Shown here: positions 6,294 through 20,186 of the stretch, piece by piece
How positions within the stretch are numbered: position 1 is the first letter of the stretch
Layout: the number at the start of each line of letters is the position of its first letter
IMG/VR virus record: IMGVR_UViG_3300041809_003391
Location: 1 to 23,173 of that record
Source of the DNA: a virus
Length of the DNA: 23,173 nt
Strand: one strand, 5' to 3'
The notes under the pieces: generated by a model
Told to the model about the DNA's origin: nothing
Database searches by the model: none
Seen by the model: the letters and a program-made list of their open reading frames with translations, nothing else
Program-made: the position numbers and the translations under genes

Positions 6294-6944
6294 ATGTCGA
6301 CTCCCCAAGAAGATATTGAAGGCCAGCGTATAGCAGCGTTGGAAGAGGCTCTTGGAATAACCTCAGAAACGCCTCAACAAGTCTGCGCAGCGGGTAAACA
6401 GCCAAAGGAACCAATGGTGAGAATGACCTTGCCGCTTTTTCATCGACGCAAAACAATGCTCATAGCCTATCATAGCGGTCACCTAAATCCTTTAGCTCTT
6501 AGGCAGATGGCTGTTGAATTTGAATGCACTGAGGCTGCTTTGCTTGATGATTTGGAAGACCGTGCGAATTGGGAGCCGTTTATCTGGGCGAATCAAGAGG
6601 CTCATGAAGATGGCAAGGCGCTGTTTCATCAGTTGCAGTTGGCTCGGGAAGAAGCCCTTTTTTTGATGAAGACCTGTAAGTCGCCTAATGCTCGGGTTGG
6701 CGCGATTGGCAAGTTTATTGACTCTATTAAAGCCGAGATTGAGGTTGGGCAAAGTTTAGGTTTGTTGCCTAAGCAAATATCGCCGGCGGTTGTTGTGCAG
6801 CAGAATAATGTCATGCAGGTCAATGCTAAGACTGAGACTAAAATAACGATTGATATGACCAAGATGTCTGAAGATGATAGAAAAGCCCTACTACGCGCTG
6901 AAGAGGCTCTCACAAGAGCAGAGACAGCAACTGGCCCACAGTAA
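6294..6944 (+). CDS. Terminase small subunit-like protein
   Basis: ATG 6294 (MSTPQEDIEG) is preferred; a TTG at 6279 overlapping the previous stop is an alternative. The 216-residue product has a helical DNA-binding-like region (NPLALRQMAVEFECTEAALLDDLEDR, about residues 64-89), a helical middle that resembles an oligomerisation core, and a low-complexity tail with VVVQQNNVMQV. Its position directly before, and 71-nt overlap with, the large terminase is the main basis for the name. Small subunits recognise packaging sites and assemble as rings. Sequence divergence in this family is high, so confidence is moderate. Confidence 0.65.
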   Translation: MSTPQEDIEGQRIAALEEALGITSETPQQVCAAGKQPKEPMVRMTLPLFHRRKTMLIAYHSGHLNPLALRQMAVEFECTEAALLDDLEDRANWEPFIWANQEAHEDGKALFHQLQLAREEALFLMKTCKSPNARVGAIGKFIDSIKAEIEVGQSLGLLPKQISPAVVVQQNNVMQVNAKTETKITIDMTKMSEDDRKALLRAEEALTRAETATGPQ

Positions 6945-8364
6945 TCTGCAGTATTACGCACGTTATCTCGGGTACATTGATACTGCTTGGTTTCAAGACG
7001 AATGGTATGAACTGCTTCAGCCACAAAACGACCCAGCACATTTTAGCCCTCTGCCCTGGCATAGTCGAGCGTTAAAGCAGTTCCATTTGGAAGCTCCTCG
7101 GAAACACGCGAAAAGCGAATGCGTCTCCATAAATTATCCTTCCTGGTTAATTGGGAACTTTCCCGAAATTAGAATTGGGATCGTCAGCAAAACCGCTCCT
7201 CTAGCCGAGCAAACTGTTGCGGCCATACGCAACCGGATTGAGAACGATCAGCACTACATCAGCGTTTTTGGCGATCTGAAGCCCAAGACCCCGCAGAAAT
7301 GGACCGATAGCGAATTTTTCGTTAATCGCAAAACCATCAGCAAGTTTCCAACTCTGTATGGCTGCGGTCTCGGCGGCTCATTAACTGGGCGTGGCTTTGA
7401 CCTGATCATTGCCGACGACATCATTGATGAAGAAAACGTTAACACGCCAAATCAGCTTGAGAAAGTCAACCGATGGTTCTTCAAGGTCCTGCTGACAACT
7501 CTGTTTTCGCATGGCGCCACTTTAGTAATTGGGACCCGGTGGCATTACGCAGATCTCTATAATGACTTGATTCAGTCAGTGGAGAAAGGCGGCAAAGGTT
7601 GGCCATTCAAAATCTATAAAGCCATCCAAAACTATGAGGGCGTCGAGAAAGGCGAAGAACCCCAAGTGCTCTGGCCGCAAGTATGGTCTTATGAGCGCTT
7701 GATACAGAAAAAAACCGATATCGGCACGGTTTACTTTAACAGCCAATATCAAAATGACCCGACAGGCATGATGGGTGACCTGCTTAAGTCGGAGTGGCTG
7801 CACCCCTGGAATGAAACAGATAACAACTTTGTGCCCTCGCCTCACTTGCCAAAATACGCCGGTGTGGACCCAGCTCTCGGCGAAGGCGACTTATTCGCAG
7901 TTAGCACCGCGAGCTATGACCGCGTTCTTAATCGGATGTATCTCTATGACGTTTACGCCAAGCTGTTGCCCTATCCCGCTGCAATGCAACTCCTGCTGCA
8001 GCTTCACGGGATCCACAACTATGCTAAGATCTATGTGGAGTCAAACGCTTTTCAAAAAGTAATCATGTACATGCCCCAGCTGCAAGGCCTCCCGATCGTG
8101 CCAACAGTAACCAGCAAAGGCAAAGAAGAAAGACTGATCCCATTAAGCAGCCATTTCGAATCCAGACGTGCAACCCTTAACCCCGCCTGGCCCTATGCGC
8201 AAAGCGAATTCTACCAAGAGTGGGTCCAATTCCCAAGAAGCGCACATGACGACGCTTTAGACTGCGTGGAAGTTATGGCTCGCAACTTGCTTGGCGTCAC
8301 CGCGATGCCTCAAGGAAAAGGCGTAGCTGTAGTTAAGAAAAAGCGACCAATCGAGGATGATTAA
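6874..8364 (+). CDS. terL: Terminase large subunit
   Basis: This is the 496-residue genome-packaging motor and nuclease. The ATPase part has a Walker A-like EAPRKHAKS (residues 73-81, a variant of the APRGHGKS form), Walker B LIIADD (177-182) with following acidic residues, and a VIGTRWH coupling motif (218-224). The C-terminal RNase H-like nuclease has YAGVDPALGEGD (Asp332), IYVESN (Glu389) and HDDALD (Asp459/460/463) as metal ligands. The length is normal for headful-type terminases. The start inside the small-subunit gene (71-nt overlap, frame +1) implies coupling. The stop TAA shares a base with an ATG at 8364, the remnant of the original next gene (see 8349-8378 and 9220-9251). Confidence 0.95.
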   Translation: MIEKPYYALKRLSQEQRQQLAHSNLQYYARYLGYIDTAWFQDEWYELLQPQNDPAHFSPLPWHSRALKQFHLEAPRKHAKSECVSINYPSWLIGNFPEIRIGIVSKTAPLAEQTVAAIRNRIENDQHYISVFGDLKPKTPQKWTDSEFFVNRKTISKFPTLYGCGLGGSLTGRGFDLIIADDIIDEENVNTPNQLEKVNRWFFKVLLTTLFSHGATLVIGTRWHYADLYNDLIQSVEKGGKGWPFKIYKAIQNYEGVEKGEEPQVLWPQVWSYERLIQKKTDIGTVYFNSQYQNDPTGMMGDLLKSEWLHPWNETDNNFVPSPHLPKYAGVDPALGEGDLFAVSTASYDRVLNRMYLYDVYAKLLPYPAAMQLLLQLHGIHNYAKIYVESNAFQKVIMYMPQLQGLPIVPTVTSKGKEERLIPLSSHFESRRATLNPAWPYAQSEFYQEWVQFPRSAHDDALDCVEVMARNLLGVTAMPQGKGVAVVKKKRPIEDD

Positions 8365-8378
8365 TGGAAAAAACTTTG
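8349..8378 (+). repeat. Left copy of a diverged direct repeat flanking a cargo gene
   Basis: Thirty bases spanning the terminase C-terminus (IEDD, stop) and an overlapping ATG with codons for MEKTL. They match 9220-9251 at 26 of 32 aligned columns. Three of the differences are synonymous in the reading frame concerned (GAG/GAA for Glu, AAA/AAG for Lys, TTG/CTG for Leu); the rest fall at the stop/start junction. This is interpreted as the duplicated junction left by insertion of the 8411-9127 cassette. Confidence 0.75.
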
Positions 8379-8414
8379 AAAAACTCTTTCCAAAATAAGG
8401 TTCCCATTGATTAA
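8364..8414 (+). pseudogene. Truncated remnant of the gene now at 9237-9410
   Basis: An ATG overlapping the terminase stop begins a 16-codon ORF (MEKTLKNSFQNKVPID). Its first five residues equal those of the intact gene at 9237, after which the sequence diverges completely. It ends at TAA 8412-8414, overlapping the stop of the minus-strand cargo gene (shared TTAA). It is best read as the 5' stub of the original terminase-adjacent gene cut off by the insertion. Confidence 0.6.
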
Positions 8415-9127
8415 GGATTGGTAATTGTTAGGTTTAGCGGCGCTGTCTGAAAGTTTGGTGGTGTTGTCTGAACTGGGTTGTAATTAGCGACGAATCCAAG
8501 TTCGCCTATAATGTAATATGCCCCTGACGGCACTTGTTCCCCCATACTTGGGAAAATGTTGTCTGAACCCCAGATAAGATTTTGCGTATAGCTTTCGTTA
8601 GGCGCCAAAGTTACATTCCAGTTGTCAAGCGGATAAGCCCCGAATTCCCACGAATAGACTGCATTGTTTGTGCTGTTGTAAACTTGAAAGTTGAAATTTG
8701 AATCTCCGTTTTGGTTGATGAAATTTAGGGTTTGGTTGCTTACGTTAGTAACTGCGAAGGTTATCTCCACGTTCTCTCCTACAACATAAGTGGTCTTGTT
8801 TGCTGTAAGAGTAATTGATAGTTGTAGCCCGTTGGTTACGGAACTTAACGCTGTGATGTTGCTGCCAGCGCTGACAGGTTGATTCTGTTCAGGATTTTGA
8901 GTTGTTGCTGATGTTGGAGTCGACGTAGACGTTGATTGAACTGTTTGGTTTGACGTTGGGGTTTGAAGCGGTACACCAGATAGCGGAGTTGGATTAGGTG
9001 TTGAACCGTCTATCCATGAAGTAAAAAAACCATTTGTGAAACCTACTGCGCTTATTAGCATTATTGCTATCACTGCAACGGCGATTCCAATATTTCTTTT
9101 AAAATGCTGTTTCTTTGGAGTAGTCAT
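8411..9127 (-). CDS. Membrane-anchored BsuPI-like extracellular protein (cargo gene)
   Basis: A 238-residue protein. Residues 14-34 form a signal anchor (NIGIAVAVIAIMLISAVGF), then a Ser/Thr/Pro/Gln-rich stalk runs to ~95, then an Ig-like domain: TTYVVGENVEITFAVTNVS, FQVYNSTNNAVYSWEFG, LAPNESYTQNLIW and PSGAYYIIGELGF. This order resembles the BsuPI (intracellular protease inhibitor) fold, which is common in exported archaeal proteins; inhibition of a protease is not implied. There is an AAGGAGAT ribosome-binding site 9 nt before the ATG. It is antisense to the packaging operon, between terminase and the next viral gene, and flanked by the direct repeat at 8349-8378/9220-9251. Confidence 0.72.
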   Translation of the reverse strand: MTTPKKQHFKRNIGIAVAVIAIMLISAVGFTNGFFTSWIDGSTPNPTPLSGVPLQTPTSNQTVQSTSTSTPTSATTQNPEQNQPVSAGSNITALSSVTNGLQLSITLTANKTTYVVGENVEITFAVTNVSNQTLNFINQNGDSNFNFQVYNSTNNAVYSWEFGAYPLDNWNVTLAPNESYTQNLIWGSDNIFPSMGEQVPSGAYYIIGELGFVANYNPVQTTPPNFQTAPLNLTITNP

Positions 9128-9168
9128 TTACCCAGCATCTCCTTGAAAGTTAATTGTTAGGTCTACAT

Positions 9169-9177
9169 CTATTTATG
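9169..9177 (-). promoter_or_regulatory. TATA-like box for the 8411-9127 gene
   Basis: On the minus strand CATAAATAG lies 42 nt before the ATG at 9127, at a distance allowing a short leader with its AAGGAGAT site. This is consistent with the cargo gene carrying its own promoter. No GTCAA or GTCC palindrome is seen here, unlike the other cargo genes. Confidence 0.45.
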
Positions 9178-9219
9178 ACTACACATTAGAACACTGATTC
9201 CGTTTATTTACGAAAAAAT

Positions 9220-9251
9220 AATCGAAGATGATAGGAATGGAAAAGACTCTG
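9220..9251 (+). repeat. Right copy of the direct repeat flanking a cargo gene
   Basis: Counterpart of 8349-8378. Upstream of the ATG at 9237 it still encodes IIEDD in the old terminase frame, although that frame no longer belongs to any gene here. A 2-nt insertion relative to the left copy separates the former stop from the ATG and creates an AGGA ribosome-binding-like sequence. Confidence 0.75.
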
Positions 9252-9410
9252 CTACTTGCTTGTGCTAAAGACGAAATCGTCAAAGTCCTCGGCTTAGAAG
9301 TCGCGAACGTGAAGATGAGTAAATTACGTTTCAAAATTAACGGCGTCGACTTAATGCGAGATATCGTGATTGATGAAATCGAAATATCCGCTGAAGTTGA
9401 CCCGCCCTAA
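9237..9410 (+). CDS. Small conserved-looking viral protein between terminase and portal
   Basis: A 57-residue protein, MEKTLLLACAKDEIVKVLG and onward, ending IEISAEVDPP. The ATG at 9237 is preferred over one at 9228 because the duplicated junction shows that the ancestral start was this codon, overlapping the terminase stop. A predicted alpha-beta mini-domain with no Cys pair or membrane segment. It is 27 nt upstream of the portal gene and belongs to the packaging operon by position. I do not recognise the family. Confidence 0.6.
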   Translation: MEKTLLLACAKDEIVKVLGLEVANVKMSKLRFKINGVDLMRDIVIDEIEISAEVDPP

Positions 9411-9437
9411 AGTTGAAGAAAAGGAATAGGTGCACAG

Positions 9438-10880
9438 ATGCCTCTCCGCAAAGATCTCTCATTAACTATGCCTAACCCGCTACGCAATGTGCCAAACGCC
9501 GTAGCAGTTTCGCAGCGTGATACAGAGGTTCCGGTTGCTTGGCGTGGCGATTGGAACTTAATGCAGTACGTCAACAACTATAACTTGGCAGCTTCAGGAA
9601 TCGGCTTTGTCAGCAGCCCCTACACGTCACTTTGGGATCGCATCTGGGGAGTCACACCTGTTGAAGACCTGCCCAAGTTCAAGGCTTTATACTCTTTTGT
9701 CCCGCGTATCCAGGCTTCAGTCGACGTCAAAGTTAATTTGGAGATTTCAAACGGGTTCACTTTGGAAGGCGGCACAAACACCTTCCGCGATTTCTTAGAA
9801 GAATGGCTAGAATCCAATGATATGCTTGATACGATGCGGTCGGAAGAGAAAGACGCGCAGGTTTTCGGCACCAGTTATACTGAGCCAGTGATGGATGAAG
9901 ACGGAGCCAAGGTCCTGTGGCTGAAAACCCTTGACCCTGAATATATGCGGATTCGCCAAGATTGCTACAAAAACATTTTCGGCTATGCGCAGCTTAATTC
10001 ATACCCGCCCGTAGTTTTTGACCCTGAAGAAATCTACCGTACCCTCAATAACGTTTCCAGCTGGTTCTTTGAGAACGCCTACGGGACCTCTTCTCTGCGC
10101 AGCATATTGCATGTTCAAGCGCTGATCGATGACTTCCAAGTTGACATGGCTAAGATCATGAAGGTTTACACCAAGCCAATGCTCATCGCTAAGTGCGGTG
10201 GGAACGGTGCACCTGGGATGCCTGAGCCATGGAGCGACCCACAACTAGATGTTATGTCTAACACCCTGGCTTCACGTGATCAAGGCACAGATTTGACTGT
10301 TAGAGGCGACGTCGAGGTCACGCCAATGTCTTCCTTAACCAAGGACTTGAAGGCAGAATGGTGGATCGAATACCTGGAGAGGCAACGTGACAGTCAACTT
10401 GGCGTTCCTAAGATCTTTCTGGGAGAGCCAGAAGGCGCCAACAGAGCCACGGCAGACGTCGTAATGCAGGAGTTCATAACTAGGCTGCGTATGCGGCAGA
10501 AACATCGCAGCGGCGTCTATGAGATGCAGCTTTTCCCATTAATCCTACGCGGCGACTTCCCTGAATCTTTGATCATACCGGATAAGATCCCGAAGATAAA
10601 ATGGAAGCCAATTTGGGAGCCACCCACTGACGTCAAGATGAGCCGCGTCATCGACCTCTACAATAATATGTTGATGGGCGATAAAGAGGCACGTGGCGAA
10701 CTGGGTCTGCCAGAAAAGATCGATGGAGTTTTGAAGTCTGTGCCCGCTCCGGCGCCAATGATGCCTGAAGGACGGCAATTTGAGACACCTGAAGCTCCCA
10801 AGAAAGCGCCTGGCGGGTTTCCAACGAAATTAGTCAAAGACGGAAACGGGGCGTCATACCTTGTGCGAGCTCTGTCTTGA
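9438..10880 (+). CDS. Portal protein
   Basis: The 480-residue dodecameric ring component at the capsid vertex through which DNA is packaged and ejected. Seen in sequence: an SLWDRIWG segment near the N-terminus, the VDVKVNLEISNGF strand, a clip/stem region around GTSSLRSILHVQALIDDFQVDM, and TADVVMQEFITRLRMRQKHR helices typical of the portal wing and stem. The C-terminal ~50 residues are Pro-rich. AGGTG precedes ATG 9438. The last 27 nt overlap the 3' end of a minus-strand cargo gene (10854-10880), so both C-termini share DNA. The call is supported by its place after terminase and before MuF and protease. Confidence 0.88.
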   Translation: MPLRKDLSLTMPNPLRNVPNAVAVSQRDTEVPVAWRGDWNLMQYVNNYNLAASGIGFVSSPYTSLWDRIWGVTPVEDLPKFKALYSFVPRIQASVDVKVNLEISNGFTLEGGTNTFRDFLEEWLESNDMLDTMRSEEKDAQVFGTSYTEPVMDEDGAKVLWLKTLDPEYMRIRQDCYKNIFGYAQLNSYPPVVFDPEEIYRTLNNVSSWFFENAYGTSSLRSILHVQALIDDFQVDMAKIMKVYTKPMLIAKCGGNGAPGMPEPWSDPQLDVMSNTLASRDQGTDLTVRGDVEVTPMSSLTKDLKAEWWIEYLERQRDSQLGVPKIFLGEPEGANRATADVVMQEFITRLRMRQKHRSGVYEMQLFPLILRGDFPESLIIPDKIPKIKWKPIWEPPTDVKMSRVIDLYNNMLMGDKEARGELGLPEKIDGVLKSVPAPAPMMPEGRQFETPEAPKKAPGGFPTKLVKDGNGASYLVRALS

Positions 10881-11530
10881 TCGCCTTAACACCATTATTG
10901 CAAAAGATGTGGAGACAAAAAATAATGTCAGAATTGTTAACATCCAAGGAAACTCAGGAACTGTAGGGGACGTAGAAGAAGCAGTTGCTGTTGGTGTAAG
11001 AGCTGGAGTGGGAGTGGGCGTTGGACTTGAGGTCGGAGCACCCGTGCTTATCACCGAGACCGTACTGTTGATAAGATTTGTGACGTAGGCGTATTCGCCG
11101 TTGGGTGTTACAGCCACACCCTCAGGCTCGTTTCCGACGGGTATCGTCCCCGTCACCGTATTCGACGCCGTGCTAATCAACGAGACTGTATCGACGTATA
11201 CTCCATTTGTTACGTAGGCGTATTCGCCGTTGGGCGTCACAGCCACACCCCAAGGAGTACTTCCAAGAGGTAAGGTTACCGTCGCCGTCACGGTATTCGT
11301 CGCCGTGCTAATCACCGACACCGAATCGCTACCTATGCCATTATTTGTAACATAGGCATATGCGCCATTTGGCGTTATAGCCACACCACAGGACCACCGC
11401 CAACGGTTATCGTTGCCGTTACCGTCTGGGCTCGAACTAGCTGAGGCAATAATGCGAAAGCACAGAACAATAAAAGACCGGTAAGAAGGATACAGCCAAC
11501 TCTCAAAGTCTTTGTTGCCCTACGTTTCAT
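10854..11530 (-). pseudogene. YVTN beta-propeller surface protein with a frameshift (cargo gene)
   Basis: Two minus-strand frames together make one gene. Codons 1-51 (11530-11375) encode a signal peptide (MKRRATKTLRVGC, hydrophobic core, LVRAQ) followed by TVTATITVGGGP. The second frame (11384-10854) starts mid-repeat with GVAITPNGAYAYVTN and continues through two more repeats of the form P-x-GVAVTPNGEYAYVTN with VSxIST between them. It then has a Thr/Pro-rich stalk and a C-terminal anchor (VPEFPW, membrane helix, RRSRQ). One inserted base near 11384-11392 would restore a single ORF and the repeat register. Three YVTN repeats are fewer than a complete propeller, so it may oligomerise or be decayed. 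It is antisense to the portal gene and overlaps its last 27 nt. Confidence 0.72.
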
Positions 11531-11591
11531 TCTTTCACAGACCATCAAATCGTTCGGTATCTACCATGCTTACTCTTGTAAACTGTTTACG

Positions 11592-11645
11592 TTAAAAGGC
11601 TTCTCGTCAAAGTTTCTTGACTGGGTGTAGTCAAAGTTTCTTTAC
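11592..11645 (-). promoter_or_regulatory. Paired GTCAA-N6-TTGAC operators and TATA-like box
   Basis: Two 18-bp near-repeats with a 24-bp period (11605-11622 and 11629-11646). The promoter-proximal one is a palindrome, GTCAAAGTTTCTTGAC (11606-11621); the distal one has TTTAC in place of TTGAC. On the minus strand the proximal site is followed at once by TTTTAA (11592-11597), a TATA-like element 62 nt from the ATG at 11530. The same block, at the same spacing, precedes the beta-helix gene (20057-20120): 24 of 31 aligned positions are identical. The sites also lie just upstream of the + strand MuF-like gene and could affect it. Confidence 0.7.
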
Positions 11646-11679
11646 TAAGCATTCAAGGATGAAGAAAAAGGAGGGGCTT

Positions 11680-11976
11680 GTGCTGCGGATGTATCTGGAT
11701 GCGGTTATCGCCGTTATGGCAGTTAAAAGCTTCCAAGCAGCTATTGTGGATCCGAACATAAAATTCTCTACCTGGCGTTTCCATAATTCTAAGAACCCTA
11801 ACACCTGCCTTAAATGCGAAGATTACGACGGCGACGAATACGAGCTTGAAGACCCTGATGATTTGCTAAGTATTTTTCCGTGGGGAGAATTCGTTGCTGA
11901 CGATACCTTCGCTTGCAATGTGCACCCGAACTGTGGTTGTTTCTGCGTGAAAATCTCAGATCAAATGAAGACTTAA
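11680..11976 (+). CDS. MuF-like minor head protein (C-terminal Cys/His domain only)
   Basis: The frame is open from 11617, but AAGGAGGGG at 11668-11676 best fits the GTG at 11680 or the ATG at 11689; ATG 11659 is also possible. The ~98-residue product ends with TCLKCEDYDGDEYELED, then FPWGEFV, then VHPNCGCFC. That is the C-x2-C plus HPNCxC layout of the MuF/SPP1 gp7 domain found right after portals. Full-length MuF proteins are usually several hundred residues, so this is a minimal form without the N-terminal helical part. The upstream sequence has been replaced by the beta-propeller cassette, so loss of an N-terminal portion by insertion is possible, although mini-MuF proteins also occur. 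Confidence 0.68.
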   Translation: MLRMYLDAVIAVMAVKSFQAAIVDPNIKFSTWRFHNSKNPNTCLKCEDYDGDEYELEDPDDLLSIFPWGEFVADDTFACNVHPNCGCFCVKISDQMKT

Positions 11977-14625: not shown

Positions 14626-15459
14626 TTATGGAATTGGATATCCGGCTAATCCGACCAAATTTATTGTATAATTGTCGACATTTTGGTTAGATGTTGCCAT
14701 ATCAATCTCAACTACATACGTGTCTCCGCTACCCAACCCAATTTGATTTACACTTAATGGTGACGATCCCGGACTCGTCACGTCCTCTGATTGAATTGGC
14801 GTACCCTTAACGTATAATTTTGCTGTCATGCCAAAATATGCTGTTCCCGTGCTGTTACCTGGAAAGTTATCCATTGGAGGTGGTTGCTGTGAAGTGTAAT
14901 CATTTCTTACAGTGGCCTCAATGATGAAACATGCTTGACCATCATATTTTCCATAATAAGAATAAGATGAAATTAGAAAAATTTTTGAACTATCTAAATA
15001 GCCAGCATCATTCAATTTTGCAGCCGGTCCATTCTGAAGCTGTTGTACTTGATTAAATTCAACTAGAGCAATTGCTGTGCTTGCAATTAAGAGAAAGGCC
15101 AAAAGTAATGAAAGAACTTGGAAAAACTTTTTTGAACTATAAAGACGAGAGTGAGTTTTGGCGGAATCTTTTCTTGCAGGAGAAGCATTCTCTACAGACT
15201 GGACGGTTAATAGGGCTTCCTTTCCTTGATTGGAAAGACCATATTTCCCATGTTCGTCAGTCTTGATTAGGTCGCCTAATTTGGTAAGATGATGTTGGAG
15301 CTGACCGCTACTTTCAATGGAGGTTTTCTTCTTTAAATCGGCAAATCCCAGAGCTTCTTCACTTAAAGCCTTTAGAATAACGATTCTTGTGGGATGGCCA
15401 AGGGCGTCGAATATTTCTGCTCTTTGTCTGTCTCTTTCTATGTCTTGTCCTTCTTCCAT
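14626..15459 (-). CDS. Transmembrane winged-helix regulator with ectodomain (cargo gene, copy 1)
   Basis: A 277-residue one-component membrane regulator. Residues ~10-90 are an ArsR-like winged helix (FDALGHPTRIVILKALSEEA, FADLKKKTSIESSGQLQHHL, the KYGLSNQGKEAL wing). A basic linker is followed by one membrane helix (residues ~112-132, FFQVLSLLLAFLLIASTAIAL) and an exported C-terminal beta-rich domain with N-glycosylation sequons. The HTH part is close to the protein at 16860-17765 (about three quarters identical by eye), while the ectodomains diverge. Such ToxR-like topology would let an outside signal alter DNA binding; the ligand is unknown. Minus strand, between capsid and connector genes, 85 nt from the capsid stop, with its own promoter and palindrome. 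Confidence 0.8.
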   Translation of the reverse strand: MEEGQDIERDRQRAEIFDALGHPTRIVILKALSEEALGFADLKKKTSIESSGQLQHHLTKLGDLIKTDEHGKYGLSNQGKEALLTVQSVENASPARKDSAKTHSRLYSSKKFFQVLSLLLAFLLIASTAIALVEFNQVQQLQNGPAAKLNDAGYLDSSKIFLISSYSYYGKYDGQACFIIEATVRNDYTSQQPPPMDNFPGNSTGTAYFGMTAKLYVKGTPIQSEDVTSPGSSPLSVNQIGLGSGDTYVVEIDMATSNQNVDNYTINLVGLAGYPIP

Positions 15460-16859: not shown

Positions 16860-17765
16860 ATGGAAGACGAGGGGCAAGTGTCTAATGATAGGCAACGTGC
16901 AGAAGTCTTTGATGCATTGGGTCACCCTACACGCATAGTAATCTTGAAGGCTCTGGGTGAAGGCGCTCTCGGCTTTGCTGACTTAAAGAAGAAAACTGCA
17001 ATTGACAGCAGCGGACATCTTCAGCATCACTTAACCAAACTAAATGGCTTGATAAAAACTGACGAGTACGGAAAATATTGCCTCTCTGATCAAGGAAAAG
17101 ACGCCTTACTGACCGTTCGAACAGTTGAAAATGTAACCGACAAAAAACTGACGTCGCCAGAAAAGCCAAAGCACCGTTTCAATCACAAAGCAGGCTTGAA
17201 AGCAACTAGTTTGTTGCTCGTAGCTCTTTTAATTGCCAGTTCAGCAGTCGCAGTATATGAGTATAATCAAGCAGGGCTTTTCAAAAACAAACTTGCCCAT
17301 TCTTCGAGGATTAGCGATGGCTATTATTTACCCTTTGAGGGTAATTATAGTAAAATATACGTAGTTTCGACAAATTCAAGTTACGGTTACTATCCGATTC
17401 AGACGTATACTTATTCAAATGGCACAGAAGTTACGTGGGGTGGACCTTGCGTTATAATTAGTGTCACCATACGCAATGATTATTCAACAGACTATCCACT
17501 GCCAGATTTTCCTACATCTAATTCAACATCAGCATGGGTCTACCTAACGGCTCAATTATTTAGCGGTGGCCAACAAATTAATGCAATGGATTTATCATAC
17601 GGTCCGCCGATTGCGCCACTTTTTGGACCTTATATAGGTTCTGGAACAGTCCTTGCCAGTGGAGAAAGTGGAACCATTACACTGTATTTGGGCACTAACA
17701 GCACAAATGTAACGAGTTATCAAATTGTGCCAACATGGATTTGGGGTACTGCGCCACCGTTTTAG
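16860..17765 (+). CDS. Transmembrane winged-helix regulator with ectodomain (cargo gene, copy 2)
   Basis: A 301-residue paralogue of the 14626-15459 protein. The winged helix spans residues ~10-90 (FDALGHPTRIVILKALGEGA, FADLKKKTAIDSSGHLQHHL, the KYCLSDQGKDAL wing). Then come a Lys/Pro linker, a membrane helix at about 119-137 (ATSLLLVALLIASSAVAVY) and an exported Tyr/Ser/Asn-rich domain with many N-glycosylation sequons. It is the only cargo gene inside the structural block that runs with the viral genes, so it may let transcription pass into the tail genes. The ectodomain is longer than in copy 1 and differs, so the two may sense different things. Confidence 0.8.
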   Translation: MEDEGQVSNDRQRAEVFDALGHPTRIVILKALGEGALGFADLKKKTAIDSSGHLQHHLTKLNGLIKTDEYGKYCLSDQGKDALLTVRTVENVTDKKLTSPEKPKHRFNHKAGLKATSLLLVALLIASSAVAVYEYNQAGLFKNKLAHSSRISDGYYLPFEGNYSKIYVVSTNSSYGYYPIQTYTYSNGTEVTWGGPCVIISVTIRNDYSTDYPLPDFPTSNSTSAWVYLTAQLFSGGQQINAMDLSYGPPIAPLFGPYIGSGTVLASGESGTITLYLGTNSTNVTSYQIVPTWIWGTAPPF

Positions 17766-20056: not shown

Positions 20057-20120
20057 ATAAAAGAGTTTTCGTCAAATTTCTTTGACTAAGGTATTTTGTC
20101 AGTAGTCAAGATTTTTTGAC
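20057..20120 (-). promoter_or_regulatory. Paired GTCAA-N6-TTGAC operators and TATA-like box for the beta-helix gene
   Basis: Palindromes GTCAAATTTCTTTGAC (20071-20086) and GTCAAGATTTTTTGAC (20105-20120), 34 bp apart. On the minus strand the proximal one is followed by TTTTAT (20057-20062), a TATA-like box 33 nt before ATG 20024. The operator-to-TATA spacing equals that of the beta-propeller gene promoter (11592-11645). Confidence 0.72.
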
Positions 20121-20186
20121 TTAGTTTTCGATGGGCGCTCTGACCGATTCTGATATGATATTATGTTAAGGTAATGAGGTGATTTG

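Follow-up and report, generated by a model that had tools for sequence, protein, structure and literature searches.

Between its genes for the terminase large subunit (TerL) and the portal protein, the virus analysed here probably exchanged everything from the TerL stop codon to about portal codon 4 for approximately 1.1 kb of DNA from a different lineage within its virus family, through recombination in the flanking DNA. This block would have brought a different allele of the small 60-aa gene located between TerL and portal, together with a host-type BsuPI surface protein encoded on the opposite strand. A preliminary description of the locus had reported a diverged direct repeat on the two sides of the BsuPI gene and attributed it to the arrival of this gene with a short homologous arm from a related virus. 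The repeat was confirmed, and DNA of a related virus is the simplest source; however, the imported unit would be a block that replaced the MVDEIL allele of the small gene and not the BsuPI gene with a short arm.

The window and its relatives

The window is the whole IMG/VR virus record of 23,173 bases that was analysed; relatives were taken from Bathyarchaeota assemblies and IMG/VR contigs. Its nearest relatives were found in Bathyarchaeota assemblies (bog_990, bog_991) and among the IMG/VR contigs, and the window is a virus of Bathyarchaeia, which are uncultured archaea. The plus strand contains TerL, the portal, a tape measure gene and a weakly matched major capsid candidate. The other five members of the nearest clade are L003, L005, L074, L077 and L079. 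In addition, L002, a contig from another metagenome, was 99.8% identical to the window over 15.7 kb and had the identical cassette structure. The BsuPI cassette is therefore not an assembly error; an artefact or chimaera, in favour of which nothing was found, is extremely improbable. The features of the locus are as follows:

6874–8364, plus strand: TerL (PHROG 38, E 5e-91; 85–93% nucleotide identity to clade members)
8349–8378, plus strand: left junction copy, TerL tail (IEDD-stop) and 15 nt from the start of a MEKTL gene; AATCGAGGATGATTAATGGAAAAAACTTTG
8364–8414, plus strand: dead 16-codon stub ORF, read from the sequence; MEKTLKNSFQNKVPID, then stop
8365–9449, no strand assigned: whole putative foreign block, which runs from the TerL stop to around portal codon 4 and comprises the stub, BsuPI, the TerL-tail remnant, the MEKTL gene and the start of portal
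8411–9127, minus strand: the moron, a BsuPI-domain surface-type protein that has a membrane segment at its N-terminus (Pfam PF12690, E 8.4e-6, above the cut-off)
9205–9251, plus strand: right junction copy, TerL-tail remnant and MEKTL start; strong part at 9220–9251, AATCGAAGATGATAGGAATGGAAAAGACTCTG
9237–9410, plus strand: intact MEKTL gene, whose allele is foreign to the window's clade (nucleotide identity of 72% with L075 and 57–59% with the five clade members)

A duplicated junction on both sides of the BsuPI gene

Segments 8349–8378 and 9220–9251 match at 26 of 32 columns, with four substitutions and a 2-nt gap, and three of the differences are synonymous (GAG/GAA, AAA/AAG, TTG/CTG). Leftward of this strong repeat, a weaker similarity continues to TAGTTAAGAAAAA/TATTTACGAAAAA. 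Reading of the sequence also bore out the earlier statement that the left copy runs into a dead stub and the right copy into the intact MEKTL gene.

The local score of flank versus flank was 34, and only 1 of 19,865 random window pairs was equally high, with a score of 50; this pair is probably a beta-propeller tandem repeat. With a second scoring scheme, in which all seven cassettes of the window were tested, p = 0.0002 was obtained at TerL/BsuPI/MEKTL. The repeat between the two segments is real and above chance. It is very improbable that the similarity arose by coincidence or was kept by a common translation-start signal: each segment precedes or contains a gene start, as such an explanation needs, but the permutation tests contradict it and no gene begins at the left stub.

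The TerL tail of the clade (GAGGATGATTAA) also serves the following gene as a strong ribosome-binding site (about -10 kcal). A retained ribosome-binding site in the right TerL remnant was considered and rejected, since its duplex (-3.2 kcal) is at background (median of random stretches, -4.0 kcal). Functional constraint therefore does not explain the similarity, and calling this piece of TerL a useless remnant was fair.

Empty sites and properties of the moron

A single TerL/small-gene junction with no BsuPI gene was found in ten relatives (L003, L004, L005, L061, L062, L065, L074, L075, L077 and L079), none of which showed both copies; an empty site of this kind had been predicted. In these relatives, TerL ends in ...DD-stop and abuts or overlaps the ATG of the next gene. 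The stop/start overlap is TAATG in L062, like in the left copy of the window, and ATGA in L061. In L005 (about position 1096), the MVDEIL gene has ACG at the position of the ATG start of its relatives.

The BsuPI gene has two of the properties of a phage-type moron. Its ORF is absent between TerL and the small gene, which are contiguous in the ten relatives, and its G+C content (0.423) differs from that of TerL (0.492) and portal (0.504). A TATA-like AT-rich stretch was seen by eye upstream of the gene on the minus strand. Transposon hallmarks were absent, as the insert consists of one BsuPI gene only, with no transposase, and there was no inverted-repeat pair at the insert ends among the 25 longest listed. 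L002 was the sole carrier of the gene among the relatives and IMG/VR contigs, and a search of the IMG/VR contigs for a donor virus with BsuPI returned only L002. Homologues were found in 14 of 91 Bathyarchaeia-family genomes, the best sharing 48% identity with part of the protein.

In L063 (1070–2293), the same TerL/MEKTL site is occupied by an independent plus-strand gene for a kelch-type surface protein. Thus, this junction was used more than once. Junction duplication at the L063 kelch-type moron was not significant after multiple tests.

Probable block of another lineage between TerL and portal

By nucleotide identity, TerL is native to the window's clade as far as its stop codon. Identity to the clade was 92–96% over the last 50 nt of TerL, 32–50% over 9400–9449 and 76–96% from 9450. 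Since it drops sharply after the TerL stop (8364) and returns at 9450, the block is taken to begin at the TerL stop and to end around portal codon 4. All five other clade members, whose TerL shows 88–93% nucleotide identity to that of the window, have another allele of the small gene, MVDEIL, which is 91–99% identical among them. The MEKTL-portal spacer and the portal start of the window resemble those of L075. A scan for further MEKTL-type viruses returned only contigs already in the comparison set.

In the TerL tree, L005 lies outside the window and the other four members; in the portal tree, both L003 and L005 lie outside. This nesting of the window has moderate bootstrap support (TerL, 93/79; portal, 98.4/81). 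Since the window is nested among MVDEIL carriers in both trees, MVDEIL is most simply ancestral and was replaced in the window. We infer from these trees that the window, rather than its clade, underwent the change, and 8365–9449 would most simply be a block from another lineage.

Source and age of the two copies

The 14 nt past the TerL stop exactly match the MEKTL start of L061 and L062 (0/1757 in the null), and the left MEKTL stub gave a score of 0 against the gene start of L003, a member of the window's clade. On this point the earlier reading fails, as the left stub does not match the gene start of its own clade: the stub also appears foreign to the clade, unless the ancestor of the window already held the MEKTL allele. 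The duplication may therefore predate the transfer and have been present in the donor.

For the right TerL tail upstream of 9237, alignment anchored at the ATG gave a score of 13 with L065 and 10 with L074 and L079 (0/1757 each), and 5 with the window's own TerL tail (43/1757). In a gapped alignment, it fits the window's clade equally well as L065 and has AATCGA in common with the clade.

These comparisons bear on an alternative in which the MEKTL allele was already present in the window's lineage, BsuPI entered through template switching or staggered-end repair, with some 30–47 bp of the target being copied, and the copies then drifted. We consider this possible but rather unlikely. The gapped fit to the clade, including AATCGA, agrees with it, and so does the divergence of the copies, given how old the branch leading to the window is. 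Comparison of TerL in the window and in its nearest relatives, L077 or L079, gave a dS of 0.305, and hence roughly 0.15 for the window's branch assuming an even split; four substitutions per 30 aligned bases at freed sites are therefore compatible with in-place copying, and the earlier argument that the repeat is too diverged for a duplication made in place fails. However, the ATG-anchored right tail is nearer to L065 than to the window's own tail, and both MEKTL differences fall in the constrained right copy, whereas the freed left stub has none (p of about 0.03, our own estimate from a simple site count). In addition, a separate earlier allele replacement would be required.

Replacement of the whole block by DNA of another lineage is thus preferred. 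Its observed basis is the repeat, a junction that relatives have only once, and a block that differs from the clade and has its own edges; the host-genome homologues of the moron and the same structure in L002 also speak for it. Against it stand the failure to find a BsuPI donor virus, the moderate support for nesting and the equally good gapped fit of the right TerL tail to its own clade. With such a replacement, the conserved junction (TerL tail, ribosome-binding site and gene start) could have served as the recombination boundary, leaving one copy on each side of the moron. An insertion between abutting genes would be viable only with both gene ends intact, and the duplicated junction would supply them.

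Other cassettes of the window

Flank-to-flank similarity was significant at two of the seven cassettes. The second site lies between portal and g11617 and includes the following features:

10854–11548, minus strand: beta-propeller moron, adjoining the left side of the portal/g11617 junction
10876–10904, plus strand: left part of the second duplicated junction, portal stop and remnant of the g11617 start (0/2085 in the null versus L004; flank-to-flank p = 0.006)
11676–11722, plus strand: right part of the second duplicated junction, start of the intact g11617 gene

A stretch of 27 nt at and beyond the stop codon of portal corresponds to the 5' end of g11617 from L004, and the intact g11617 lies beyond the cassette. 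This cassette therefore also appears to have a partly duplicated junction, although the case is weaker, as the antisense strand of the remnant encodes the end of the beta-propeller gene. The five remaining cassettes of the window showed no junction duplication (p 0.17–0.65), and at portal/g11617 in L003 and L074 it was not significant.

At both duplicated sites the native genes overlap or abut. Relatives have an overlap of about 34 nt between portal and g11617, and their TerL and MEKTL genes touch or overlap, but spacers separate MCP from g15577 and g18250 from g20184. Duplication may be seen where genes touch because only insertions that spare both gene ends survive selection there. Two duplicated sites are too few to name a mechanism. 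It is quite doubtful that morons of these archaeal tailed viruses enter abutting or overlapping junctions by a process that regularly duplicates about 27–47 bp, so that both neighbours survive, with two of the seven cassettes as its independent products.

Several other observations were made at these cassettes. Paired palindromes GTCAA..TTTCTTGAC are located at 11606–11646 and 20071–20121 in the window, at 12203 in L003 and at about 12840 in L074, with zero expected per shuffled window. They lie upstream of minus-strand morons, namely three different morons at portal/g11617 (window, L003, L074) and a NosD-like moron, and may be a common promoter or operator. Window positions 14626–15459 and 16860–17765 contain paralogous HTH-plus-membrane morons in opposite orientation; upstream of the starts, the two share an inverted repeat of 24 nt (92%). 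L061 differs in its portal C-terminal codons, and at this end of portal (7130–8524) a moron is in place and g11617 was not found.

Comparison with known systems

Morons and recombination at short boundary sequences are known sources of mosaicism (PMC3029335). As in those phages, the window has an extra gene between genes that are contiguous in relatives, and exchange would have occurred at a short conserved boundary. In contrast, its moron lies between abutting genes with a duplicated junction, and the promoter and terminator of the moron are only putative. The described tailed viruses and proviruses of Bathyarchaeia (PMC10848311, PMC11705971), compared by description only, have the host class and HK97-type head genes in common with the window; the passages searched in these papers do not describe a junction duplication of this kind. 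A literature search found no papers on archaeal viruses in which the insertion of a moron is accompanied by a duplicated junction.

The closest known case is mycobacteriophage LRRHood, in which a 1.35-kb insertion (genes 43–46) lies between 29-bp direct repeats. Its relatives have this repeat only once, and one of the two LRRHood copies is at a gene's end; the authors favour recombination with another phage as the source (PMC3029335). Likewise, the window holds an extra gene between direct repeats, with two copies in the filled genome and one in the empty relatives. Unlike in LRRHood, the copies are diverged, the host is archaeal and a neighbouring structural-gene allele lies in the same block. 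The locus provides a well-resolved example of how host-type surface-protein genes move among viruses of uncultured archaea together with an adjacent structural-gene allele at a conserved junction, supported by empty sites and by comparison with the virus's own clade. Each half of a repeat should be checked against that clade before a one-step insertion is inferred. The locus can be regarded as a clear case of known viral gene shuffling, an event of the LRRHood kind in an archaeal virus.
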